From Nitrospira sp. (GTDB lineage Bacteria > Nitrospirota > Nitrospiria > Nitrospirales > Nitrospiraceae): a stretch of 64,000 nt of DNA. Positions 11,188 through 27,857 of this stretch are shown here, piece by piece. How positions within the stretch are numbered: position 1 is the stretch's first letter; each line of letters starts with the position of its first letter. A program made the position numbers and the translations under genes. The DNA lies in contig VGXG01000001.1 of assembly GCA_016873395.1 (NCBI GenBank), positions 1 to 64,000 on the forward strand, in the 5' to 3' direction. The notes beneath the pieces were generated by a model. It did no database searches. It was not told the DNA's origin and saw only the letters and a list, made by a program, of their open reading frames with translations.

Positions 11188-13227
11188 CTAAAAATACCAG
11201 GCCACGCCCCCCATTATATTCCTGGGCGTACCCGGCACAAAATGGATGTCGGTGACGGCCGGCTGGCCGCGCAACTGGGATTCGTAGAAAAATTGCGCCT
11301 GCCGCCAGTCCACGTCAAACAGGTTTTGAATCGTAAAGAAGGCTTCGAGGCGGCCCCGCTCCACCTTCACCGGCAGCCGGTAGCGGTTGACCCAATCAAA
11401 GACCGTGAACGGCTGGGCATAGGCCGTCCGGTTTACATCAGCCGGTCGCCGCCCCATGTGGATCATCTGGAGCGAGGAGGACAAGCCCATCGGATGCTGG
11501 ACGGTTAAGCCCGCCTGGGCAGTCAACTCAGGTGCCAGAGGGATCGCTTGCCCCGTACCGCGGAACTCGGCATGGGTGAGGGTCAAATCGCCTCGGAGCG
11601 TGAGCCAGTCCAGCAGGGTCAGCCTGGTTCCCAGCTCCGTCCCGTATCGTCTGGAGGCGCCCCTGATCTGGGTCGTCCCTGCATCGCCGACGAACACCAG
11701 CTCCGATTGCAGATCCAAGGCCCAGAGGGTGGCAAGCAACTCCACCCGATCCCATTGTTTGGTGCGAATCCCGACTTCATAGGCGGTGGCCCGAGGCAGA
11801 GTCTGGGCCGCCTGCCCGCTCACCACAGCCCGTGCATCATTGCTGTGAAAGCCGGTCCCGACGTTCAGGAAGAACTCAGTCCCCAGCCAGGGGCCGAGGA
11901 TCAGGTTGCCCTTGGTGCTCGCGATGACCGCATCGGTCCTCCCCTGGGGCTGCTGGGTGCAGGTCGCGCAAAGGTTCTGCACGTTGAACGTGAAGAAATC
12001 CGCTCGCGCGCCGCCGTTCACCCGCACCCAGGGAGTCGGCTGTAATTCCAATTTCAGGTAGGGCGAATAGGAGGCCTCCAGTACGGCGCTCTCCGAGGTG
12101 ACCGTCAGCAGCGCGCGCTGCTGTTGGTCGGCGATCCGCACACGGGCATCGTCCACGCGGGTCTGAACGCCCAAAGTTGCCGTCCCGTCTACGCCCATCA
12201 GGGTACCGCTCTGCCTGTACCCGACATCGCTCCCGTAGACCACCCGACGATCGCCCTGCTCGATCCCATCCCCATGCACCGGATCGTTAAGGAAGAAAGT
12301 GAAGTTGCTATACAGGTCCAGCTTGTAATACTGCGCATAGAGATCGGCAAAAATTTTTCCGCCGGTGCTCGTATCATAATGGTACCGCAGGGTGCCGGTG
12401 GCCCGATTCGTCCGTCCACCTTCAGACGGATCGACGGACCCAAACCGATCCAGCAATCCGGCAAAGACGGCGTAGACAGGAAGCTGGCCGGATGCGTTCC
12501 ACCGGCTCTGGTTATAGGTGCCGGTCAGGCTGAGCTCGGACCGTGGCGTAGGATTGATCGTCGCCTTAAGCAGCCCGTTGAACCGGTTGTAGCGGTTGGG
12601 ATTCAGAAAAGGGCCGTTGGTGAAATAGCCTTCCGCCGCCACCAGGGTCCGCAGCTTCCCCGTGGTCGGCGAGAACATCGTGAGATACCGTTGCGTGTCG
12701 AACTGCCCGCCCGCCGCCTGGATGAAGCCTTCCTTGACCTCGTCCCGCGTCACGAAATCCACCGCACCGCCCGTGTTGAAGTCCCCGAACTGGACGTGGT
12801 AGGGCCCTTTATAGACCTGAATCTCTTTGATCGTCTCCGGAATGATGAAGTTCAGGTCCGCATAGCCCTGCCCGTGGGCATGGCTGCGCATGTTCACCGG
12901 CATCCCGTCCCGGAAGACGGCGATGTCGGTCCCGTGGTCCGCGTCGAACCCGCGCAGAAAATACTGGTCGGCCTTGCCGGCCCCGCCGGAATGTTCCACG
13001 GTCAGAATGCCGGGGGCCAAGCGCAGGAGCATACCGGGGCGGCCTTGCGGCTGGAGGAGGATGTCCTTGTCCGGGATGACGTGTTCCGAAGAAGCGGCGA
13101 CCAGCCGCTCCGCAGCCACCGGGACTTCGGGGAGAACGACCGTGCCGTCGGCTGCCGGCTCATGGGCTTGCGCCATTAGCACAGGGAACAGAAGAAGGAC
13201 CAAAAAAATAACCGTCAGATTCAACAA
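11188..13227 (-). CDS. TonB-dependent outer membrane receptor, probably for nickel
   Basis: 679 residues: signal peptide (to about AQA-HEP), a plug domain (about 45-155, with PGMLLRLAPGI, QYFLRGFDADHGTDIAVFRDGMPVN and VYKGPYHVQFGDFNTGGAVDF) and a 22-strand barrel ending in aromatic WYF. The start must be TTG 13227 or 13224, because an in-frame TAA lies at 13243-13245; GGAG at 13238-13241 serves it. NikR is the next gene upstream on the same strand, 162 bases away, and NikR-linked TonB receptors in other bacteria take up nickel chelates. Substrate is therefore inferred from context. Confidence 0.88.
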   Translation of the reverse strand: MLNLTVIFLVLLLFPVLMAQAHEPAADGTVVLPEVPVAAERLVAASSEHVIPDKDILLQPQGRPGMLLRLAPGILTVEHSGGAGKADQYFLRGFDADHGTDIAVFRDGMPVNMRSHAHGQGYADLNFIIPETIKEIQVYKGPYHVQFGDFNTGGAVDFVTRDEVKEGFIQAAGGQFDTQRYLTMFSPTTGKLRTLVAAEGYFTNGPFLNPNRYNRFNGLLKATINPTPRSELSLTGTYNQSRWNASGQLPVYAVFAGLLDRFGSVDPSEGGRTNRATGTLRYHYDTSTGGKIFADLYAQYYKLDLYSNFTFFLNDPVHGDGIEQGDRRVVYGSDVGYRQSGTLMGVDGTATLGVQTRVDDARVRIADQQQRALLTVTSESAVLEASYSPYLKLELQPTPWVRVNGGARADFFTFNVQNLCATCTQQPQGRTDAVIASTKGNLILGPWLGTEFFLNVGTGFHSNDARAVVSGQAAQTLPRATAYEVGIRTKQWDRVELLATLWALDLQSELVFVGDAGTTQIRGASRRYGTELGTRLTLLDWLTLRGDLTLTHAEFRGTGQAIPLAPELTAQAGLTVQHPMGLSSSLQMIHMGRRPADVNRTAYAQPFTVFDWVNRYRLPVKVERGRLEAFFTIQNLFDVDWRQAQFFYESQLRGQPAVTDIHFVPGTPRNIMGGVAWYF

Positions 13228-13389: not shown

Positions 13390-13806
13390 TCAACTCAGCC
13401 CCTTCCCGGTGGTCGTCATGGTCAGCTTGCCGTGCTTCACTCCCTTGGTCGCAATGAGGGTGTCGGCGACTTTTTTGATTTCGCTGCCACGGCCCCGGAC
13501 GACCAGCACCTCCAGACAACGGTCATGGTCCAGGTGGACGTGCATGGTCGAGAGGATGAGGCGGTGATGATGGTGCTGGATGTCGGTGAGCTTCTCGGTC
13601 AGGTCGTGGACGTGATGGTCATAGACAATCGTGATAGTCCCGACCGTCTCCTTGTTCTCGTCCCACTGTTGCCCGACCAGGTTGTCTCGGATCAGGTCGC
13701 GCAGCGCTTCCGACCTGGTCGCATAGTTCTTGCGCGCGAGCAACCGGTCGAAGTCATCCAGCAGATGATGATCCAGCGACACCCCGAACCGGACCAGCTT
13801 CTTCAT
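13390..13806 (-). CDS. nikR: nickel-responsive transcriptional regulator NikR
   Basis: 138 residues. A ribbon-helix-helix DNA-binding domain (1-45: [17 protein letters not shown]...[10 protein letters not shown]) is followed by an ACT-like metal domain. The four square-planar nickel ligands align with the Escherichia coli spacing: His78, His89, His91 and Cys97 ([10 protein letters not shown]). Extra histidines (HHHH at 78-81) may bind weakly. A perfect palindrome overlaps the region directly upstream of its ATG, suggesting autoregulation, and it probably also controls the receptor gene that follows. Confidence 0.95.
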
Positions 13807-18198: not shown

Positions 18199-19329
18199 TT
18201 ATTTTTTCACCTCTCCCACGATCCGCTCCACCCGCTCGTCCTTCCCCCCCAGCTCCAGGTACTTCCGGTACCGAGCCAGCGCCTTCGCCGTATCCTTCTT
18301 GTGTAGCTCATAGAAGATGCCCAGGCTGTAGTGGGCCTCGACCAGGTTCGGCTTCAAGGTCAGGGCGGTTTCATATTCCCGTTCCGCGTCATCCAACTTG
18401 CCGAGCTCGGTGTACACGCCCCCCAGATTCAGGTGCGCTTCTGCATACTCGGGCTTGAGTCGGATGACGTCCGTGAACTCCTTGGCCGCCTCCCTCTGCT
18501 TGCCCTCGCTTCGGTAAATAAAGCCCAGGTTGAAATGGGCATCCACGAGGTCCGGTTTTGCCGCGATCGCCAGGCGATAGAAGCCGGCCGCGTCGGTGAG
18601 GCGGCTTTCCTTCTCCGCGATCCGTCCCAAGAGATACCAGCCGTCGGCATGACGCTGATTCGCCTTGGTGAGCTGTTCCAGCACCTCGCGCGCCTGCGCC
18701 CCCTTGCCTTGACCGTCGTAGAGATACCCCAGGCCATAGAGCGCTCCCTGATGGCCCGGCTTGACGGCAAGCAAGTCGCGGTAGGCCTGGATGGCCTTGT
18801 CGGCGGCGCGACTACGCTCATAGAGCTTGGCCAGCGCAAAATGCGCCTCCTCGAAGCGGGGCGAAAGCTGGATCGCCCGTTTCAAGGCCTGCTCAGCCTC
18901 AGCCGGCTTGTCTTGGGTCTGGTACACGAGCCCCAGGTCGTACTGAGGCTGCGGTTCGTTGGGATTGAGCTGGATGGCCTTCGTGATCTCGTCGATCGCT
19001 TCAGCCGGCTGCTTCCGCCCGTGGAAATAGACGAGGCCGAGTTGGTGATGGGCTTCCGCCATTCGGGGATCAATGGCGATCGCCTTCTTGAACGAGGTGA
19101 CCGCCCCGGCTGAGTCGCCGTCCTTAAACAGCTTCCGGCCCCGTTCGTATTCCTGCTTGGCCGCCGTGGAAACAGAGGGAGCAGTCCCGGCCAAGACCAG
19201 CAGCCCGTTGAGGCAGAGCCAGGCTCCCGCCAACAGAAGGGTTCGTCTGACCAGGACAGGGCTCGGACGTATCACGATCGCTCCGTTCACGTCTCGGTTG
19301 TGCGACCGGACTATAGACGGAGCGGACAT
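18199..19329 (-). CDS. TPR-repeat protein with N-terminal membrane anchor
   Basis: 376 residues from ATG 19329. One hydrophobic segment (about 30-50), then eight or nine consecutive 34-residue tetratricopeptide repeats to the C-terminus, with the usual W/L-G-Y/A-P pattern (EAHHQLGLVYF, AHFALAKLYE, AHLNLGGVY, EAHYSLGIFYE). The repeats form a superhelical scaffold for protein binding, probably in the periplasm. No catalytic domain. Partner unknown. Confidence 0.88.
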   Translation of the reverse strand: MSAPSIVRSHNRDVNGAIVIRPSPVLVRRTLLLAGAWLCLNGLLVLAGTAPSVSTAAKQEYERGRKLFKDGDSAGAVTSFKKAIAIDPRMAEAHHQLGLVYFHGRKQPAEAIDEITKAIQLNPNEPQPQYDLGLVYQTQDKPAEAEQALKRAIQLSPRFEEAHFALAKLYERSRAADKAIQAYRDLLAVKPGHQGALYGLGYLYDGQGKGAQAREVLEQLTKANQRHADGWYLLGRIAEKESRLTDAAGFYRLAIAAKPDLVDAHFNLGFIYRSEGKQREAAKEFTDVIRLKPEYAEAHLNLGGVYTELGKLDDAEREYETALTLKPNLVEAHYSLGIFYELHKKDTAKALARYRKYLELGGKDERVERIVGEVKK

Positions 19330-19400
19330 CGAAATCAACGGGCGAAATCAACGAGTCGTCCGGCCCTCATTTCCAAACAGGACCAGACTACGCCACAGCA

Positions 19401-19438
19401 CGACGCCCCCTGCACCGATCCCGGTGCAGAGGGCGTCG
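19401..19438. terminator. stable hairpin between TPR gene and cupredoxin-like gene
   Basis: Two stacked stems (CGACGCCC/GGGCGTCG and CTGCACC/GGTGCAG) with a six-base loop. It lies just downstream of the minus-strand metal operon. No U-tract follows, so termination is likely but not certain. Confidence 0.5.
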
Positions 19439-19463
19439 TCGTTTCGAGTCCTGCCAGCCGTCC

Positions 19464-19943
19464 CTATTTGATCAAGAGCAGCTTGCCGCCTGCGTCCTGG
19501 GGATTCAAGTGATCCCGGTAAACGAACGTGCTGCCGGAAGTGGCGTAGAGGAGGTCGCTGAGGGGCACGCCGATGTAGCGGCTCTCACCGGGCTTCAAAA
19601 CAACCTGGGCTTTCAACACCGTAGGCGCCTCAAAGGCCCCGTCCGCTGTCATGAGAAACCCGCGCTCGATCGAGGATCTGTTGGTGACCTTGAGCACCAC
19701 CGGACGACCAGGCCGAACCTTCAAGTCCAGGATTGTCACGGGCGGATACCACATTTTCAGTCCTCCGACTTCGATGGCGCTGAGATCCGCATCCACCGGC
19801 AGTTCTTTGAACGGCTGTCCGACAACGGACCCATTCTCATCTCCGACTTCTACTCCCCCGGCGTGATGCGCCACGGTAACTGATCCACCTCCCAGCAGGA
19901 AGACAAGCCCGACCACGACCAACACCGATACCTTGCGCATCAT
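19464..19943 (-). CDS. secreted cupredoxin-like protein without visible copper site
   Basis: 159 residues; signal peptide (VSVLVVVGLVFLLGGGSVTVA), then a cupredoxin-like beta sandwich: LKVRPGRPVVLKVTNRSSIERGF, VVLKPGESRYIGVPLSD and a final TFVYRDHLNP...GKLLLI. The Cys-His-Met cluster of blue copper proteins is absent from the last loop, so any metal is bound differently or the fold is structural. AGGAGG lies just before the tandem ATGs. Last gene of a three-gene run with smbP. Confidence 0.7.
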   Translation of the reverse strand: MMRKVSVLVVVGLVFLLGGGSVTVAHHAGGVEVGDENGSVVGQPFKELPVDADLSAIEVGGLKMWYPPVTILDLKVRPGRPVVLKVTNRSSIERGFLMTADGAFEAPTVLKAQVVLKPGESRYIGVPLSDLLYATSGSTFVYRDHLNPQDAGGKLLLIK

Positions 19944-19991
19944 CAACCTCCTTTGAGGACATGAAAATGGATGAATGGACGACCGACTGTC

Positions 19992-20294
19992 CTATTTCTT
20001 TTTCGGCGCGGCCTTTTGACCGGACTGCTCAGCATGGGCGATCGCCTCCTCCGCATGCTTGACCGCGTCCTTGGCATGGTCGATGGCCTCCTTGGCATGG
20101 GAGTCCCCGCCCGCCTTGATAGACGCTTCCAGGTGCTGGATGGCCTCCTTCACGTGCTTGATGCCTTCCTTGGCGTGGACAACCCCTTCTTTCGCGTGTT
20201 CTCCTGTCCCCTGGGCAGAAACGACCCCTCCACTCAACGCAACTGCCAGAAGAATTGGAAGTAGCACCTTGGCCGTTACCCTTTTGTGTTTCAT
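19992..20294 (-). CDS. smbP: small periplasmic metal-binding protein, SmbP family
   Basis: 100 residues: signal peptide (to about SAQ), then a helical region of heptad-like repeats each with a His and usually followed by Ala and Lys/Glu (EHAKEGVVHAKEGIKHVKEA and SHAKEAIDHAKDAVKH). This is the pattern of SmbP from the nitrifier Nitrosomonas europaea, a four-helix periplasmic protein that binds copper and other divalent metals. GGAGG precedes the ATG. It lies 28 bases behind the gene carrying the shared 31-bp promoter box, so it is likely metal-induced. Confidence 0.8.
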   Translation of the reverse strand: MKHKRVTAKVLLPILLAVALSGGVVSAQGTGEHAKEGVVHAKEGIKHVKEAIQHLEASIKAGGDSHAKEAIDHAKDAVKHAEEAIAHAEQSGQKAAPKKK

Positions 20295-20321
20295 CGCGTC
20301 TCCCTCCTTTTGTGATGTGCA

Positions 20322-20669
20322 TCATAAAGATTTCTTACTGTCACGGGGTGACGACGTGCACGGCGGCAGCCCATCCTTTTCCAGAATCTGCCCGCCGACC
20401 ACCTTATCGCCGACGACGAGAAAGAGCGCCTTGAGCCGCTGGACCTGGCCCAGGAACCGTCCGCTGGCCACGGCCGTCACTTCGCGGGAGCCGTCCGGCT
20501 GCGGCTGGTCGGCTTCAATAGCCACCTGATAATGGTCGAACCCCTCGAACTCCTTGTTGAAGGCTTGTGCGCGGAGCAGACTCTCGAGAGCCCGATCCTC
20601 GGCAGGGGCCGGCGTAAACCCCATCAGCAACAGTCCCGCCACAAGGGCAAGCAGCAGCATGCTTCTCAT
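20322..20669 (-). CDS. small secreted protein of unknown function, first gene of smbP operon
   Basis: 115 residues with a signal peptide (MRSMLLLALVAGLLLMGFTPAPA) and a compact mixed alpha/beta domain (YQVAIEADQPQPDGSREVTAVASGRFLG). One Cys near the C-terminus in PPCTSSP. No family recognised. GAGAGGG precedes the ATG. Its promoter (-10 GTTATA on the plus strand, -35 at 20719) carries the box shared with the 23.5-kb gene. Confidence 0.7.
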   Translation of the reverse strand: MRSMLLLALVAGLLLMGFTPAPAEDRALESLLRAQAFNKEFEGFDHYQVAIEADQPQPDGSREVTAVASGRFLGQVQRLKALFLVVGDKVVGGQILEKDGLPPCTSSPRDSKKSL

Positions 20670-20695
20670 AGTCCCTCTCTTCTACAGGCTCGGCA

Positions 20696-20749
20696 GTTAT
20701 AGGACCTTCGCCACATCCTGTCTACTGATGGATACTCACCGATGCTACA
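20696..20749 (-). promoter_or_regulatory. promoter of smbP operon with conserved 31-bp upstream box
   Basis: On the minus strand: -35 TAGACA (20724-20719), 17-base spacer, -10 TATAAC (20701-20696), 26 bases before the ATG. The box 20719-20749 matches 23571-23601 at 26 of 31 positions and holds two AGCAT-like direct repeats about one helical turn apart, as response-regulator sites often do. Confidence 0.7.
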
Positions 20750-21080
20750 GTCCCGTTTAAGCTCTTCACGGGGGTCGCAGGGGCAGGGCCGCGCGAATTT
20801 CCATCCTCTCCATCCTAAAGACCCGGACCGGATCGCAGCGGCTGAGAGCCCTCACTGCGTAGGTCTCCACCAGAAAGGTGGCCTCGAAGGGGAGCGTCTG
20901 ATCGTCCCGCCTGGCTGCCTCCGCGGGATCAGCGTCGAGCCGCAAGAAGAGCCGGGGTGAAGGCCAGGAGGAGTCACCTTCACCCCAGTGAGGTCCGAGC
21001 AAGGAGGGTGACAACCCGGACCCAGCGTGCTTCCTCGTCCAATGTCAGCGATGCAGAAGAGGGGGAGCCGATTGAGCCGG
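20750..21080. other. region without a supported gene
   Basis: One minus-strand frame of 82 codons (20766-21014) has reasonable composition and ends in LPLRPP, but shows no recognisable domain, signal or ribosome site. I see nothing else beyond a short hairpin-like GGTGAAGG/CCTTCACC pair near 20955-20985. Confidence 0.3.
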
Positions 21081-21299
21081 TTACCGCGTGCCGGTTCTCC
21101 GACCAACAGCGTAGAGGCCTGCGTCATGCGTCCGGCTCCGCTCCACCAACGCCGTCACCGACTCGCGGAAGACGCGCAGGCTGCCCTCGCCGATCTTGGT
21201 CCCTTCCAGCCGCCCCTCTTCGACCCACCGATAGATCGTCCAGCGACTGACGTTCAGCAGATGGGCCGCTTCGCCCACCCGAAGCAATGGCTTCTCCAT
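21081..21299 (-). CDS. excisionase-type helix-turn-helix protein
   Basis: 72 residues from ATG 21299. The N-terminal half is the MerR-like HTH_17 domain (LLRVGEAAHLLNVSRWTIYRWVEEGRLEGTKIG), as in excisionases and small DNA-binding regulators; the RVFRESV strand follows. It could be a remnant of a mobile element or a local regulator of the metal genes. No integrase is nearby. Confidence 0.75.
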   Translation of the reverse strand: MEKPLLRVGEAAHLLNVSRWTIYRWVEEGRLEGTKIGEGSLRVFRESVTALVERSRTHDAGLYAVGRRTGTR

Positions 21300-21435
21300 T
21301 GCGCGCCTCCGTACCAAACTTCGTTTGCACCGTTCGCTTCGATCGTTCGACCCAGAGGCTCTCGACGGGTCAGATGCGAACGGAGAAGTTTTTTGCCTCC
21401 AGTAAGCCTAAATTCTTCCTTCCAAAGTGACTGGG

Positions 21436-21458
21436 GGGGCGGCCGGGAAGGCCGCCCC
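21436..21458. repeat. GC-rich perfect hairpin
   Basis: Nine-base perfect stem GGGGCGGCC / GGCCGCCCC with a GGGAA loop, between the HTH gene and the P460 remnant. No U-tract. Confidence 0.6.
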
Positions 21459-21534
21459 TCCGACCGGAGCGCAGCAAGGAGGCAGTCCAAGCCCTCGCCC
21501 CAGCCAATCGGCACGACCCTGTTATAAACAGGGT

Positions 21535-22104
21535 CTAGCTCTTCGCCCGCACGGCGAAGTATTCGTCGTAGCTGTGGACAAAGTCCTTCTACGCCAGCGG
21601 TGCATGGCAGGCCCGGGACTTGGCGAAAGCCTCTGCCAGCGGCTTCCCGTCTGGCCCATAGGCTGCAAAGACCCATGCTCCGTTCTTGAGATTCTCGTGA
21701 ACATCCTGGCCCCAGCCTTCGTCCTTGCCCATGACGAAGACCTTGGCCAAGTCGCCCTTCACCAGCTTCCCGTCCGGGCCGGTCGCAAGCGCCTCGCTCT
21801 CTGTCTTGGCCTTATACAGCTCCATGACCATGACCGTGCCGTTCGGAAACGGCCGGCCCGGCACGGCCTTTGTCCCCTTCGGGTTCACGTACAGCTCGTG
21901 AACCTGCCTGGTGCCGCGCCCGGCCACAAACGGAAATTTTGGCCAGGACTTGTAGTCCGCTGGCAAGCGAAGGTCGCCCCCACCGACCGTGGCCGGTCGA
22001 GCGACACCGGCCCGCTGCACAACCTCGACCGCGAGAGACAAGAGCCTGATCGCGACCATCCTCAGCGGGCTCGTAGCCCGACGTTTCTCATGGCTTCCCC
22101 GCAT
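21535..22104 (-). pseudogene. cytochrome P460-like gene inactivated by a haem-site mutation and an amber codon
   Basis: The frame encodes a P460-type domain: LPADYKSWPKF, HELYVNPKGTKAV, FPNGTVMVMELYKA, VMGKDEGWG and WVFAAYGPDGKPL. The haem motif, normally CxxCH in CxxCHAP, reads S-R-A-C-H-A-P: a TCC codon replaces the first Cys. A TAG at 21589-21591 follows APLA; the frame then continues with the expected family C-terminus (KDFVHSYDEYF) to a second TAG at 21535. Two point changes thus break a gene whose product in nitrifiers oxidises hydroxylamine or NO. The N-terminus has only a weak signal peptide. Confidence 0.82.
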
Positions 22105-22134
22105 GACCCCACCTCTCCTCCCCCCGCCGCCGGT

Positions 22135-22482
22135 TCAGCTCATCGGCTCGGCTGTGCAGAACCACTCCAGGCCCATCTTTGTGCCTTTCACGCCCTTGAC
22201 CGCAGCGACGAGCCCCTCGGGCTTCACGCTCCCATCATGTTCGACGAGGGCATGGCCCTTCAGGCTCTTGAGGTCCACACCCTTAACCCCCTTGACCTTC
22301 ATCAGCGCCTCCGTCAGCTCCTTGGGATAGAACTCGCAGAATGTTCCACCCAACATGAGCGTGATCGGCTTCCCCGCCGCCGTGACCGGCCTCGGCTCCA
22401 CCGCGAGGCCGGGCGCGCATCGAGTCGCCACCATGAGTCCGATTCCCACCGTTGTCAGCACGCAACTTGCGAACGCACGCAT
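22135..22482 (-). CDS. secreted HMA-like small protein (copy 1)
   Basis: 115 residues from ATG 22482 behind AAGGAGG. Signal peptide, then a beta-alpha-beta-beta-alpha-beta domain reminiscent of heavy-metal-associated domains but with a single Cys in LGGTFCEFY instead of CxxC, KVKGVKGVDLKSLKGHALVEHDG, and a second Cys in the final LEWFC. Homologous in layout to the next gene (22514-22864). Probably periplasmic metal binding or sensing; unproven. Confidence 0.65.
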   Translation of the reverse strand: MRAFASCVLTTVGIGLMVATRCAPGLAVEPRPVTAAGKPITLMLGGTFCEFYPKELTEALMKVKGVKGVDLKSLKGHALVEHDGSVKPEGLVAAVKGVKGTKMGLEWFCTAEPMS

Positions 22483-22513
22483 CGCCGTCCTCCTTTCCAT
22501 CCGGGACAGAGGG

Positions 22514-22864
22514 TCATCCCCCTCGATCCACCCAGGCCTTGCAGTTCCAGCCCATAGCGAGCGCCCGCTCGACGGCTACTGCCAATTGTTCCGGCGACAC
22601 CGATTCCTTCTGATACCTGACGAGCACCGTTCCATGCTGATTCAGGAACTCCACGTGTTGCACGGCGACGAACCGACGCAACGCGCCGTCCACGTCTTGA
22701 CGGTGATACTCACAGAACCGCCCGCCGATTTGGACGATCGCCTCTCCGATCCTCCGGTCCTCGACACTTGGCGCAACCACGCGGCGATCCTCTGCGTGGA
22801 CAACGAGGCTGCCAGCCGCAAGCATCACCCAGACACCCACAAGTGACAGATACTGGCGCATCAT
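22514..22864 (-). CDS. secreted HMA-like small protein (copy 2)
   Basis: 116 residues from ATG 22864. Signal peptide (YLSLVGVWVMLAAGSLVVHA), then the same layout as its neighbour: IGGRFCEYHRQDVDGAL, VEFLNQHGTVLVRYQKESVSPEQLAVAVERAL and a C-terminal Cys in GWNCKAW. The two paralogues share GG-x-F-C-E-aromatic and a C-terminal Trp/Cys, spaced 31 bases apart in one transcript. The conserved Cys pair may replace the CxxC of true HMA domains. Confidence 0.65.
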   Translation of the reverse strand: MMRQYLSLVGVWVMLAAGSLVVHAEDRRVVAPSVEDRRIGEAIVQIGGRFCEYHRQDVDGALRRFVAVQHVEFLNQHGTVLVRYQKESVSPEQLAVAVERALAMGWNCKAWVDRGG

Positions 22865-23202
22865 CCTTTCTCCTCTTGCCTCCCAATTTGCCAAAAGGCC
22901 GGGGTGGGGGAGGTAGGCCACCGACCCCACCCCAGGCGGGTCCGAGACAGGAGGCCGCCCAACTCGGACCCGGCACAGTTGCTTCAGTTCATCAAGCGGG
23001 CCATGGAGAACCCTCCGGCACGTTGGCCCTGGAACAGCCGGCTATAGTCGTGTCCTCTCAGGAGCAGGAGCACGCAGGGACCAAGAGAACCGGCAACCGG
23101 TCCGGCTCATGCCGCTCGTTGAGCAGCGCAACACGCTCCTCGGCAGAGGTATGGGCCGTCCCGATGGTTGGTCGGGTCACGGGGTCGTGGAAGAGGGTGT
23201 GC
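22865..23202. other. region without a supported gene
   Basis: Holds a GC-rich hairpin (GGGGTGGGG / CCCCACCCC near 22903-22934). A minus-strand stretch, 23200-23060, reads as about 47 uninterrupted codons ending CSCS but has no start or recognised family. Otherwise nothing seen. Confidence 0.3.
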
Positions 23203-23517
23203 TTAGCGAGGGGGCGCGCGGGAACGAATGAAGTCGAGGCGAACGCCGAACAGAGAAACAGAAGGAATGGGAACCAGCGTCACACCGAGAAACAGCAGGG
23301 CGACGACCGGCGGTATCGAGGTCAGGCTGGGCTCGCTGTTGGCCTGGCAGGCCCAGACGCAGAGCAACGAATGGGCGGCCTCTCCCGAATGTTGATGGTG
23401 ATGGTGCCCGCCGACCGGCGCGGCCGGGTAGGCGAAGAGACAAACCGCCGCCTGGATCGCCAGCACGAGATAGACCGCGACCAGAGCCCCGGCAATCGGT
23501 GTTAGCGCTCGCTTCAC
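23203..23517 (-). CDS. His/Cys-rich small membrane protein, DUF2946-like (paralogue 3)
   Basis: 104 residues from GTG 23517, preceded by GGAGGT. One N-terminal membrane helix, a His cluster (GGHHHHQHSGEAAHS), the motif LLCVWACQAN, a second hydrophobic segment and a terminal SRAPP. DUF2946-type proteins share His clusters, a Cys pair and a final RAPP; several are linked to copper. Two relatives lie at 27858 and 31280. It has its own promoter carrying the 31-bp box seen upstream of the smbP operon. Confidence 0.72.
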   Translation of the reverse strand: MKRALTPIAGALVAVYLVLAIQAAVCLFAYPAAPVGGHHHHQHSGEAAHSLLCVWACQANSEPSLTSIPPVVALLFLGVTLVPIPSVSLFGVRLDFIRSRAPPR

Positions 23518-23546
23518 GCGAGGGACCTCCAGGTTACGTCGGCAGG

Positions 23547-23601
23547 ACTCTAGCCCGGTTCCCAGCGGCTTGTCTACAGACGGATGCTCACGCATGCTAC
23601 A
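23547..23601 (-). promoter_or_regulatory. promoter of DUF2946-like gene with conserved 31-bp upstream box
   Basis: Minus strand: -35 TAGACA (23576-23571), 17-18 base spacer, -10 CTAGAG or TAGAGT (23553-23547). The box 23571-23601 is the second copy of the element at 20719-20749, lying 54 bases from the start codon against 50 there. Confidence 0.65.
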
Positions 23602-23665
23602 AGTTCCTTGGGAGCCGGCCCGCCCGCCACGGACGCCTGCCCCGCTCCCTCCTTTCAAGCCGAGC

Positions 23666-24046
23666 CTACCGGGAACCGGCACTGGCCCCGGACCCTCGGA
23701 TCGAGATATTGAAGTCGCGCGGCCCATTGCCCTGCCGCACCGACATGCCCGGCAGCGATTCCAGCGACTCCCGCATGTGTCGCGTCGGCTGCTCGGTGAA
23801 CTCGCTTCGCGGCGCGGTGGATTGGGTCACTCCCTCAGGGCCCTGCTTCAGCGCCTCCAGATCTTTTCTGATCAGCGCAGCCTGCTCACGTAACTGCTGC
23901 ACCCGCCGAGTCCGCTCCAAGTCCGATTGATTGCCCGGCGGAGATTGAGACGAAGCAGGAGCCGCCTGTCCTACGAGGCACAGGATCGCACATCCGCAAC
24001 ACACAGTCGCGATCGGCTTGTTTCCGAAAAGTCCAATGTTTCGCAT
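23666..24046 (-). pseudogene. N-terminal fragment of a TonB-dependent receptor
   Basis: 126 codons from ATG 24046 (good ribosome site). Signal peptide, a short coiled coil (LERTRRVQQLREQAALIRKDLEAL), then the start of a plug domain: PTRHMRESLESLPG, RQGNGPRDFNISIRGSG. It then reads ASAGSR and stops. The same stretch in the intact receptor at 25407-27749 continues for 600 more residues. So this is a decayed second copy whose barrel has been lost. The DUF2946-like promoter begins 64 bases further on. Confidence 0.8.
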
Positions 24047-24139
24047 GACCGTTCTCCCTCCATTCCACGGTCCCCTCAGCCCGTTTGTGGAGCCGTCCGG
24101 CATCCGGTGCATCCGCACGCGGGCATCCGGAGCCATCAG

Positions 24140-25402
24140 CTACAGTCCCCGATCGCGCGAGCTGCCCTGCGGTTGTCCGGTTCCGAACCCCGGTGGAAGC
24201 GCGCCCGGTTTGCGTCCCTGGGGCACTTCAACCCCGACGACGACCCGCTCGCCCTCTTTCAGCTCTCCACCCTGGACCTCAGTGGCATTCCCGTCCGAGA
24301 CACCCGTTTGGATCAACGCCGGCATGAGCTCGCCGGAACCTCCCAACTTCCACACGGTCTTCGTCAACGCCGGCGGATTCCCCTGACCGGAGGCCGCCTG
24401 GACGGGCCCGGCTCCCGAATCCGGCGCAGGGTTTCCGGCACGGTCCGCCCGGGGCGGGGTAAATCGCAAGGCCGCGTTCGGCACCTTGAGCACCTGGTCC
24501 TTGTACGCCACGATGATCGAGACATTGGCCGTCAGGCCGGGCTTGAGCCGAAGGTCCTTGTTGTCCACCTCGACCACGACGTTATACGCCACGACATTCT
24601 GCACGATGACCGGGGCATTGCGAACCTGGCGGACCTGACCGTGAAAGCGTTCGCCCGGGTAGGCATCCACGGTGAAGACCGCCTTCTTGCCCTCTGCGAT
24701 GCCGCCGATGTCCGCCTCGCTGACGTTGGTGTCCACCTGCATGCGCGTCAGGTCCAGCGCGATCAGAAAGAGGTTCGGCGTCGCAAAGCTGGCCGCGACC
24801 GTCTGCCCGACCTCCACGTTGCGGGCGATCACGATCCCGTCCACCGGCGAGCGGATGACGGTGTATTTCAGGTCCAACTCGGCCGCGTTCAAGGCAGCGT
24901 CGGCCTGCGTGACCTGCGCCTCCGCCATGTCGATCTGCGACAGGGCGCCTTGATGAACCGTCTCGGCCATGTCTACCTCATTCTGGGAAACGAACTGCTG
25001 GTGCAGAAGCGCTCGGGCCCGGTCCAGCTCCCGCTTGCGTTGCCCAAGATCCGCGCGGGTCTTGCGCGCGCCAGCCTTCGCCATCACGAGGTTGGCCGCC
25101 GCTTGGTCCCGACGTTTCTGAAACGGCGCCGGATCGATCCGAGCCACCACATCGCCGGCCTTGACGGCCGAATTGTAATCCGCATGGAGGCTCTGAATCA
25201 TACCCGAGACCTGACTGCCCACGGGCACCGCGACGACCGGGTTGACCATGCCGGTGGCGGTGACCACTTGAACGACCGCCCCTCGCTCGACCGGCAGAGT
25301 CCGCCACCTGACGGGAGCCGCACGCGCGCCGTTGAACACCAGATAGCCCACGATGGCCAGCCCCGCGGCCAGCACGCTGACGCTCCAGACGATTTTCTGC
25401 AT
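24140..25402 (-). CDS. periplasmic adaptor (HlyD/MacA-type membrane fusion protein)
   Basis: 420 residues from ATG 25402, four bases after the receptor stop. N-terminal membrane anchor, beta-barrel/lipoyl half-motifs (GSQVSGMIQSLHADYNSAVKAGDVVARIDPAPF and LKYTVIRSPVDGIVIARNVEVGQTV), a helical hairpin between (about 100-190), and a C-terminal membrane-proximal domain with a Pro/Gly-rich insert. Closest in layout to MacA adaptors of ABC-type MacAB pumps, but no MacB or RND gene is nearby, so its transporter is elsewhere or lost. Co-transcribed with the receptor. Confidence 0.88.
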   Translation of the reverse strand: MQKIVWSVSVLAAGLAIVGYLVFNGARAAPVRWRTLPVERGAVVQVVTATGMVNPVVAVPVGSQVSGMIQSLHADYNSAVKAGDVVARIDPAPFQKRRDQAAANLVMAKAGARKTRADLGQRKRELDRARALLHQQFVSQNEVDMAETVHQGALSQIDMAEAQVTQADAALNAAELDLKYTVIRSPVDGIVIARNVEVGQTVAASFATPNLFLIALDLTRMQVDTNVSEADIGGIAEGKKAVFTVDAYPGERFHGQVRQVRNAPVIVQNVVAYNVVVEVDNKDLRLKPGLTANVSIIVAYKDQVLKVPNAALRFTPPRADRAGNPAPDSGAGPVQAASGQGNPPALTKTVWKLGGSGELMPALIQTGVSDGNATEVQGGELKEGERVVVGVEVPQGRKPGALPPGFGTGQPQGSSRDRGL

Positions 25403-25406
25403 CGGC

Positions 25407-27749
25407 TTAGAACCCCAACGTGACCCCCCCGTAGATGGCCCGTCCATAGCCGGCGAAGAACAACGTCTTGCTCGCATCGGCGGTGCTGTCCGCGACCACG
25501 TTGCCGGAGGCCACGTACGTCTTGTCGGCGATGTTGTCCAGCTCGAAGTAGAACTTGGCGAACCGAACATAGGGGTTGTTCTTGAACTCAAAATTCTTGT
25601 GCACGTTGGCATTCATCAGCCAGTAGGCCGGCGCGGCGACCGTATTGGCGTTGTTGAGGAAATAACTGTCCCAGTAGCTCGTCTCGAACCATGCCCCCAA
25701 CCCCGACGGGTGTTCGTACTCTTCCTTGAAGTTGAGCACATTGCGCACCACGTTGGGGACCAGTTTCCCGTCTCTCACGAAGTCCGTCGGCACGCCGTTA
25801 ACCAGGAATCTATCCTTAAAATTGGTGTACGTGCCGGTCACGTGCGTATAGGCGCCCGAGAATCGCCACCCGGCCCAGGGGCGCCAGTCGTAGCTGAGCT
25901 CGATGCCTCGATATTCCGACCCATCGGCGTTGATCGACGCCGTCCCGCCCGTCGACGAAACGACCTGCGAGATGATCTCGTTCTTGAAGAAGATCCAATA
26001 TCCGACGAACTGAACCGAGAGATCCTTGGCGAGTTTCGAATCGGTGCCGATTTCGAGGTTCAAGTTCTTCGTCGGCTTGAGATTGAAGTTCGTGCCGGCC
26101 AGGCCGGTGAAGGGGTTGGTGGTGAGGTTGCTGAATCCGGGTATCGCATAGCCCGTGGACGCTCGCACCCAGTGCTTGTAGCCCTCGGCCGGCTTCCAGG
26201 TCAGGGACATTTCCGGTGCCCAGTTGTCGAAGGTGCGGTCCGCGTTCGCCCGGGTATCGACAGCGCCCGCCGACGTGTAGTTGACGGTCTGCACGCTTAC
26301 GATCGATTGCTCATACCCCAACCCGGCCGCGACGGTCCATTTCGGCGCAAACTCCAGCTCCCCGCGAAAACGCCCGCCGATGTTCCGAATCGTGCCGCGG
26401 CTGTTCTGCCGGAGGACTCCCCGCGTGCCGGTGCCGTCGATGGAATTGGCAAAGGTCGCCCCTTCCTGCTCCATGTTGTTCACGAAAAACCCGACATAGC
26501 TCTTGAGCGGCATCCCCGCCAGATGCCCGTCGTGCCGCAGATCGGTGTAGTGTTTCCAATTGGGGTTCACGTTGTCGGTAATCTGGGAAAACGTCTGGTT
26601 GATGTCCTTGACATCGTAATCGGCTTCCATCGTCAAGACGGTGTTGGCGTCGAGCTGCCGCTCGTAGAAGCCGCCGATGATCGTCCGCCGGTCCAACCGC
26701 CGCTGCGCCAAGAGCAAGGCATTATTGCAGTTCGTGACGGAGGTGCAGACGGTCCCGCCGGCCTGCCGCGGGTTGCTCGCAAATTGCGAGAGCGTCAACC
26801 GGGTCGGCACCTGGGTGTCAAGCCAATTCGTGATCGCCTTGAAGTAGAGGCTCTGCTTGTCGTCGATTTTGAAGCGGAAATTGAAGTTGAGGCTTTGGGT
26901 GTTGTAGCCGCTGTGATCGATGTAGCCGTCCTCGGCCACCTGGCTGGCGAACAGAGCGATGTCGGTGTTCTTGGTCTCCTGACCCACGGCAAAGGCATAC
27001 TTCTGAAAGCCGTACGAGCCGACTTGGAAGAACGACTCAACGCCGTTGATGTCGCGGCCCCGCCTGGTCTTGAACTGCACCATCCCACCGAGGGCATAGT
27101 TGTCGTAGAGCGAAGAGGACGCGCCTCGGGTGACCTCCACGCTTTTCATGAACCAGGGATCGTGCAAGTCCATTCGGCTCAAGCCGTCGGACTGGGTTTG
27201 GATGATCCCGTCCTCGTACATTTTGAGGTCTCTGATCGCGAACGTGGTCTTGACCCCTGAACCGCGGATCGAGATGCTGAAATCCCGAGGCCCGTTCGCT
27301 TGGCGGACGATCACGCCGGGCAGCGACTCCAAGGACTCCCGCATGTGTCTCGTCGGCTGAGAGTCGTATTCCGACCGAGGGGTCGCCGAGAGCGAGATAC
27401 CCTCCGGATGCTTCTGCACGCGCGTGCTGACGATGCTCATATCCACCAGTTCCATTTCCGGCGCGGCGCCTGGTTCTGCCGGTTCGACGCGGCTCTTGAC
27501 GACGCCGGCACCTCCGGGCGTCTCCCCGCCCTCGGCCGGAACTCCCGCTCGCTGAAGCTCGTCGAGTTCGTCGAGAATCTTCTTGAGTTGCGTTTCCAGT
27601 TTTTCCTTGCGCTGAGCCCGTTCTTCTCTGGTCGTCGGCGGAGGAAGCGGCTCCTGCGCAGCAACCTGGGTCCCCCACCACAGAAACAGATTCACCAGCG
27701 CCACGGCAATGAACGCCGTGCCGCGCATGACAGAGATACGTACTGACAT
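25407..27749 (-). CDS. TonB-dependent receptor with N-terminal coiled coil
   Basis: 780 residues from ATG 27749 (GGAGGG site). Signal peptide, a coiled coil (about 32-70, REERAQRKEKLETQLKKILDELDEL), plug domain with PTRHMRESLESLPGVIVRQ, RDFSISIRGSG and YALGGMVQFKTRRG, then a barrel ending in VTLGF. The preplug coiled coil is unusual and recurs in the truncated copy at 23666-24046. A TonB gene, TlpA, propeller protein and adaptor lie in the same transcript, so it probably imports a metal complex; copper is the best guess from neighbours. Confidence 0.88.
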   Translation of the reverse strand: MSVRISVMRGTAFIAVALVNLFLWWGTQVAAQEPLPPPTTREERAQRKEKLETQLKKILDELDELQRAGVPAEGGETPGGAGVVKSRVEPAEPGAAPEMELVDMSIVSTRVQKHPEGISLSATPRSEYDSQPTRHMRESLESLPGVIVRQANGPRDFSISIRGSGVKTTFAIRDLKMYEDGIIQTQSDGLSRMDLHDPWFMKSVEVTRGASSSLYDNYALGGMVQFKTRRGRDINGVESFFQVGSYGFQKYAFAVGQETKNTDIALFASQVAEDGYIDHSGYNTQSLNFNFRFKIDDKQSLYFKAITNWLDTQVPTRLTLSQFASNPRQAGGTVCTSVTNCNNALLLAQRRLDRRTIIGGFYERQLDANTVLTMEADYDVKDINQTFSQITDNVNPNWKHYTDLRHDGHLAGMPLKSYVGFFVNNMEQEGATFANSIDGTGTRGVLRQNSRGTIRNIGGRFRGELEFAPKWTVAAGLGYEQSIVSVQTVNYTSAGAVDTRANADRTFDNWAPEMSLTWKPAEGYKHWVRASTGYAIPGFSNLTTNPFTGLAGTNFNLKPTKNLNLEIGTDSKLAKDLSVQFVGYWIFFKNEIISQVVSSTGGTASINADGSEYRGIELSYDWRPWAGWRFSGAYTHVTGTYTNFKDRFLVNGVPTDFVRDGKLVPNVVRNVLNFKEEYEHPSGLGAWFETSYWDSYFLNNANTVAAPAYWLMNANVHKNFEFKNNPYVRFAKFYFELDNIADKTYVASGNVVADSTADASKTLFFAGYGRAIYGGVTLGF

Positions 27750-27857
27750 AAGGCCCTCCCCAAGGTAGACGGCACACGGACTCCCCCGCCATTCCCCTAG
27801 AAGGAAACACGGCGAATGAGGAGGCACGTTGCGATGATGGACGCGGTGAACTCTGAT

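Follow-up and report, generated by a model that had tools for sequence, protein, structure and literature searches.

The closest described relatives of the system analysed here are DNA-binding proteins that read direct repeats. BldC assembles head to tail on direct repeats of 9 bp, reads a G through its residue Arg30 and represses whiI (PMC5859096). Proteins of the Xis type bind direct repeats that are spaced one helical turn apart, and Apl of phage 186 doubles as a transcription regulator that represses both of its promoters (PMC7498355). The locus under study lies in a 64-kb window, that is, the whole stretch of 64,000 nucleotides that was analysed from the first contig of a Nitrospira sp. 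draft genome, and it holds two similar boxes of direct repeats, each fused to a promoter, with a gene for a small winged-helix protein between them. Nitrospira rank among the major nitrifiers and do not lend themselves easily to genetic manipulation, and in the open literature on Nitrospira with SmbP, TonB, P460, copper or excisionase no account of the box or its regulon was found.

Two promoter boxes and the genes behind them

Read on the minus strand, box 1 is TGTAGCATCGGTGAGTATCCATCAGTAGACA (20749..20719) and box 2 is TGTAGCATGCGTGAGCATCCGTCTGTAGACA (23601..23571). Direct comparison bears out the description in the original prediction: the boxes are identical at 26 of 31 bases, share the same orientation, stand 50 and 54 bases upstream of the ATG at 20669 (box 1) and the GTG at 23517 (box 2), and both end in a TAGACA -35 hexamer, which is followed by TATAAC at 17 and TAGAGT at 18 bases, respectively. 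The AGCAT/AGTAT direct repeats inside them, originally placed about ten bases apart, have a spacing of exactly 10 bp. Blocks of 20-40 bp in the flanks match at 6/20 to 14/40 positions, which is background, so a recent duplication is ruled out as the origin of the pair. Chance similarity is likewise ruled out, as the window contains the box pattern twice and none of 100 dinucleotide shuffles contains it, and the reversed-sequence controls reported below agree. Across the 2.34-Mb draft genome, which may lack parts, a scan allowing up to 3 mismatches returned boxes 1 and 2 as the only copies, and a looser pattern again found these two alone. A structured RNA was rejected: 19000-25000 has no Rfam match, and the box lies upstream of the -10.

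Table 1. Features of the two box promoters and their surroundings
Feature	Coordinates	Strand	Evidence
smbP, second gene behind box 1	19992..20294	-	Pfam SMBP, 1.2e-8
First gene behind box 1: 115-aa secreted protein, unknown family	20322..20669	-	no Pfam match, relatives
-10 TATAAC of box 1 promoter, spacer 17	20696..20701	-	sequence
Box 1, direct-repeat array ending in -35 TAGACA	20749..20719	-	sequence, shuffles, genome scan, logo, matrix, relatives
HTH_17/excisionase-family winged-helix protein, 72 aa, proposed cognate regulator, between boxes	21081..21299	-	Pfam HTH_17, 8e-11
Cytochrome P460-family protein, between box 2 and HTH_17 gene	21589..22104	-	PF16694, 5e-21
HMA-like secreted protein downstream of box 2	22135..22500	-	HMA, 22.8 bits, just below cut-off
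HMA-like secreted protein downstream of box 2	22514..22930	-	weak HMA match
First gene behind box 2: 104-aa His/Cys-rich DUF2946-like protein	23203..23517	-	DUF2946, 18.5 bits, below cut-off
-10 TAGAGT of box 2 promoter, spacer 18	23547..23552	-	sequence
Box 2, direct-repeat array ending in -35 TAGACA	23601..23571	-	sequence, shuffles, genome scan, relatives, logo

The proposal that one site controls smbP and the DUF2946-like gene together is well supported insofar as both operons share an activator-type promoter site, with one correction: the gene of the 115-aa protein comes first behind box 1, and smbP second. This protein has no Pfam match, and its orthologue is found behind a box in several relatives, while the gene cluster of the 104-aa DUF2946-like protein stands behind 32 of 106 boxes in related genomes. 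Judged from gene content, namely SmbP, HMA-like and DUF2946-like proteins and TonB receptors, the box regulon appears to be linked to metals.

Two further features of the region deserve mention. A gene for the nickel regulator NikR (13390-13806, minus strand) adjoins a TonB-dependent receptor gene (11188-13227), an arrangement that suggests a separate nickel-controlled uptake unit. Known NikR sites are palindromic, and NikR was ruled out as binder of the box, which has no NikR-like palindrome; it is also absent from the gene clusters that recur around boxes. Additionally, the stretch 23666-24136 (minus strand) encodes a 156-aa secreted protein that ends in a truncated TonB-receptor Plug domain and resembles the N-terminus of the receptor at 25407-27827, and is thus possibly a truncated receptor copy.

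Recurrence of the box and its quantised length

The box is a real promoter element that is common to many Nitrospira relatives. A first search detected it in 33 of 119 related genomes and a consensus-pattern search in 80 of 198, among them Candidatus Nitrospira defluvii, against a single match of the reversed pattern in all 198. Several copies per island are frequent, with up to eight on one contig. There is no third copy in the genome of origin, and in the relatives the box recurs across the order before metal-type genes. The logo of 106 aligned sites reads T-GTAGCA-tcc-GTGAGCA-nnC-GTC-g-GTAGACA, with G at positions 3 and 13 in all 106 sites and at position 23 in 103 of them; the three units of the box are exactly one turn apart, and the last merges into the -35. 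A weight matrix built from these sites scores them at 26.6 to 52.5 and gives nothing above 8 on 1.03 Mb of reversed sequence, while in real loci it finds many more, weaker sites, some of which adjoin HTH_17 genes in genomes that had failed the first pattern. Genes behind boxes most often code for DUF2946-like membrane proteins that are small and rich in His/Cys (clusters 1 and 8), and clusters 15 and 29 hold small proteins of a similar kind; next in frequency are BNR-repeat, TonB-receptor and 115-aa-family genes, and P460 genes follow weaker sites.

The geometry fits a sigma70 promoter with an upstream activator array. A -10-like hexamer starting with TA follows GTAGACA at 16-19 bases, mostly at 17, in 131 of 134 sites, compared with 13 and 5 at control offsets, and the logo and the downstream genes place the array in fixed register with the -35 and before genes. 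The distance from the left repeat (TGTWGYA) to GTAGAC is 7 bases in 2 sites, 17 in 109, 26/27 in 25 and 35 in 1, and falls practically nowhere else, while in reversed sequence the distances are spread evenly. Some of the 109 sites at spacing 17 stem from loci that had been picked by a spacing-17 pattern; no such selection applied to the classes at 7, 26/27 and 35. The length of the array is therefore quantised: whole one-turn repeats are gained or lost upstream, and the other end of the array keeps its position at the -35, a pattern that would be expected if the binding protein is arranged head to tail along the direct repeats.

A candidate regulator and its rivals

The gene that tracks the box is the HTH_17 gene of the island, present in 75 of 80 box genomes and in 20 of 118 without a box (Fisher p 3e-29). 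Because sites from related genomes are not independent, the pairing was also permuted within genera, and 0 of 20000 permutations reached the observed value. P460 and the 115-aa protein occur in only 44 and 47 of the 80 box genomes, and the association with the box (phi) is 0.75 for HTH_17, 0.62 for the 115-aa protein and 0.40 for P460. Conversely, of 39 loci picked solely for their similarity to HTH_17, 24 contain box-type sites, with 0 control matches, and most of the others belong to a second or third paralogue subfamily. In some genera the HTH_17 gene sits upstream of a box, at 15-90 bases, and in others downstream, at 500-2250 bases, and this lack of a fixed order points to a functional link rather than frozen synteny.

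Taken together, the data favour a model in which the box is most likely bound by the island HTH_17 protein, whichever way this then acts. The box is read as an operator-promoter in which a few 10-bp direct repeats run into a sigma70-type -35 at a constant register, and on these repeats the protein would assemble head to tail, one protomer per repeat, as BldC and Xis/Apl do. Once bound, it would probably contact RNA polymerase at the -35 and activate transcription, a step that we hold to be somewhat more probable than its absence. Box 1 would drive the unit of the 115-aa protein and smbP, and box 2 the DUF2946-like/HMA/P460 unit, which may run into the HTH_17 gene and thus produce autoregulation; the predicted targets are DUF2946-like, SmbP-operon, P460 and TonB-receptor genes. 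With no sensor domain, and no Cys in the copy of this genome, the protein is unlikely to sense metal directly.

Several observations weigh against the HTH_17 protein as cognate regulator. Its co-occurrence with the box may stem from shared island membership, and five box genomes are exceptions to the pairing. In G168 an HTH_17 fragment with stops adjoins the box, and for G008 and G135 either the genome is incomplete or the box lies at the edge of a contig, while G009, G135 and G141 carry a box and no close intact HTH_17 homologue. The sister genomes G009 and G141 have kept a single box, the GTAGACA end of which has decayed. Solitary boxes in which GTAGACA has become ATAGATA, in two genomes without a close intact HTH_17 homologue (L071, 7463-7492, minus strand, and L133), could be relics left after loss of the regulator. 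Furthermore, a second, box-less paralogue is present in many genomes.

This second HTH_17 paralogue sits just behind a TonB receptor at seven loci (L096, L098, L101, L103, L104, L107 and L109), N. defluvii included; no strong box lies within 6 kb of it, and a search by eye beside it showed no distinct motif. A third subfamily (L122-L128) has a longer tail and precedes a conserved secreted protein (ASCGSASCFVV...), with no box nearby. Among phage proteins, the HTH_17 protein has distant relatives only, below 60% identity.

The strongest alternative keeps the same protein on the same array and reverses the sign of control: because the third repeat overlaps the -35, the bound protein would block polymerase until released by a metal-linked signal. 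Even unaided, the promoter has a fairly good -35 (TAGACA) and -10 (TAnAnT type), and both precedents, BldC at whiI (PMC5859096) and Apl at its two promoters (PMC7498355), act there as repressors. Sites of repressors, however, usually vary in position, whereas this array always ends at the -35 and adds repeats only upstream. Activation is favoured on account of this constant register, which is a judgement and the sole ground on which the two signs are told apart, and repression is accordingly regarded as unlikely.

More doubtful still is a reading in which an OmpR/PhoB-type response regulator or another unlinked activator binds the site in class II fashion and the HTH_17 protein is a mere passenger of the island. 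Direct repeats about one turn apart that overlap the -35 are typical of OmpR/PhoB sites too, the box repeats have this layout, and the genome holds 27 response-regulator domain matches. The original prediction of an activator site is well supported, as the site is conserved across the order, in fixed register at the -35, with a -10 at the right distance and before metal-type genes; the response regulator it named as the possible binder is not supported. Neither response-regulator nor ECF-sigma domains occur within the window, which rules out a nearby gene of either kind as partner of the box, and the sole DNA-binding gene found to recur with the box is of the sensor-less HTH_17 type. The nearest response regulator lies at 64166 on the same contig, more than 40 kb from the boxes, and there is none among the 25 Pfam families listed for 81 island proteins, a list that stops short of 30 single-member families. 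Moreover, HTH_17 tracks the box even in genomes that lack both the P460 and the 115-aa genes (17 of 20), and a repeat number quantised in 10-bp steps is easier to reconcile with an oligomer assembled head to tail than with a regulator that binds as a dimer.

Finally, an extended promoter for an ECF-type alternative sigma factor, its upstream half read by sigma, would explain the strongly conserved -35 region and the more variable -10, but is highly improbable given that repeat number in one-turn steps is not a known feature of sigma promoters, the -10 is sigma70-like at 17-18 and the window holds no ECF gene.

Comparison with known systems

The preferred reading, activation by an array-bound HTH_17 protein, gains a structural framework from the AlphaFold model, a small winged helix with domain pLDDT of about 80-90 and a disordered tail, which stands alone with no effector or coiled-coil domain, as in the BldC family. 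The best solved matches of the model are Pukovnik Xis (4j2n) and the BldC-DNA complexes (6ama/6amk), and Pukovnik Xis is also the best PDB sequence match (3.7e-6). The protein scores 47.9 bits against the excisionase domain TIGR01764, above the cut-off of 28.8, and 22.7 bits against NF033787, the NCBI BldC family, far below the cut-off of 77; it is therefore likened to BldC/Xis in its mode of action and not classed as a BldC. At the position that aligns with BldC Arg30, with residue numbering counted by hand, all of 30 family members compared have an Arg. Against a BldC-like reading, HTH_17 is a broad fold, the BldC cut-off is missed, and the repeats measure 10 rather than 9 bp.

With a predicted operator, a likely regulator and a list of targets, the control of these metal islands can be put directly to the test, either in vitro or with reporters in E. 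coli. A broader picture can be put forward tentatively, in which an excisionase-type, sensor-less protein has been recruited across Nitrospirales as a dedicated metal-island activator, and whole-number repeats could tune output by oligomer length. If oligomer length does tune these promoters, the mode of DNA binding of BldC and Xis would extend to whole-number promoter tuning.

Set beside the known systems, the locus shares some features with each and differs in others. BldC, a MerR-like, sensor-less protein of Streptomyces, resembles the HTH_17 protein in size (68 versus 72 aa), predicted fold, the aligned Arg of the recognition helix and sites with a variable number of direct repeats, but its repeats are 9-bp AATTNNNNC, whereas each repeat of the box spans 10 bp around a GAGCA core, at a set position relative to the -35, and the present protein belongs to a Nitrospirales lineage and a metal-related regulon. 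Excisionases and RDFs such as Pukovnik Xis and Apl share the excisionase domain and direct repeats one turn apart; the box sites, however, are promoters and not attachment sites, the HTH_17 gene sits among metal genes, and no integrase was noticed among the same 25 listed families of island proteins. Sites of the OmpR/PhoB class II type are alike in their tandem direct repeats that abut the -35 in fixed register, and the differences are that the box has no linked response regulator and that its repeats step singly by 10 bp.
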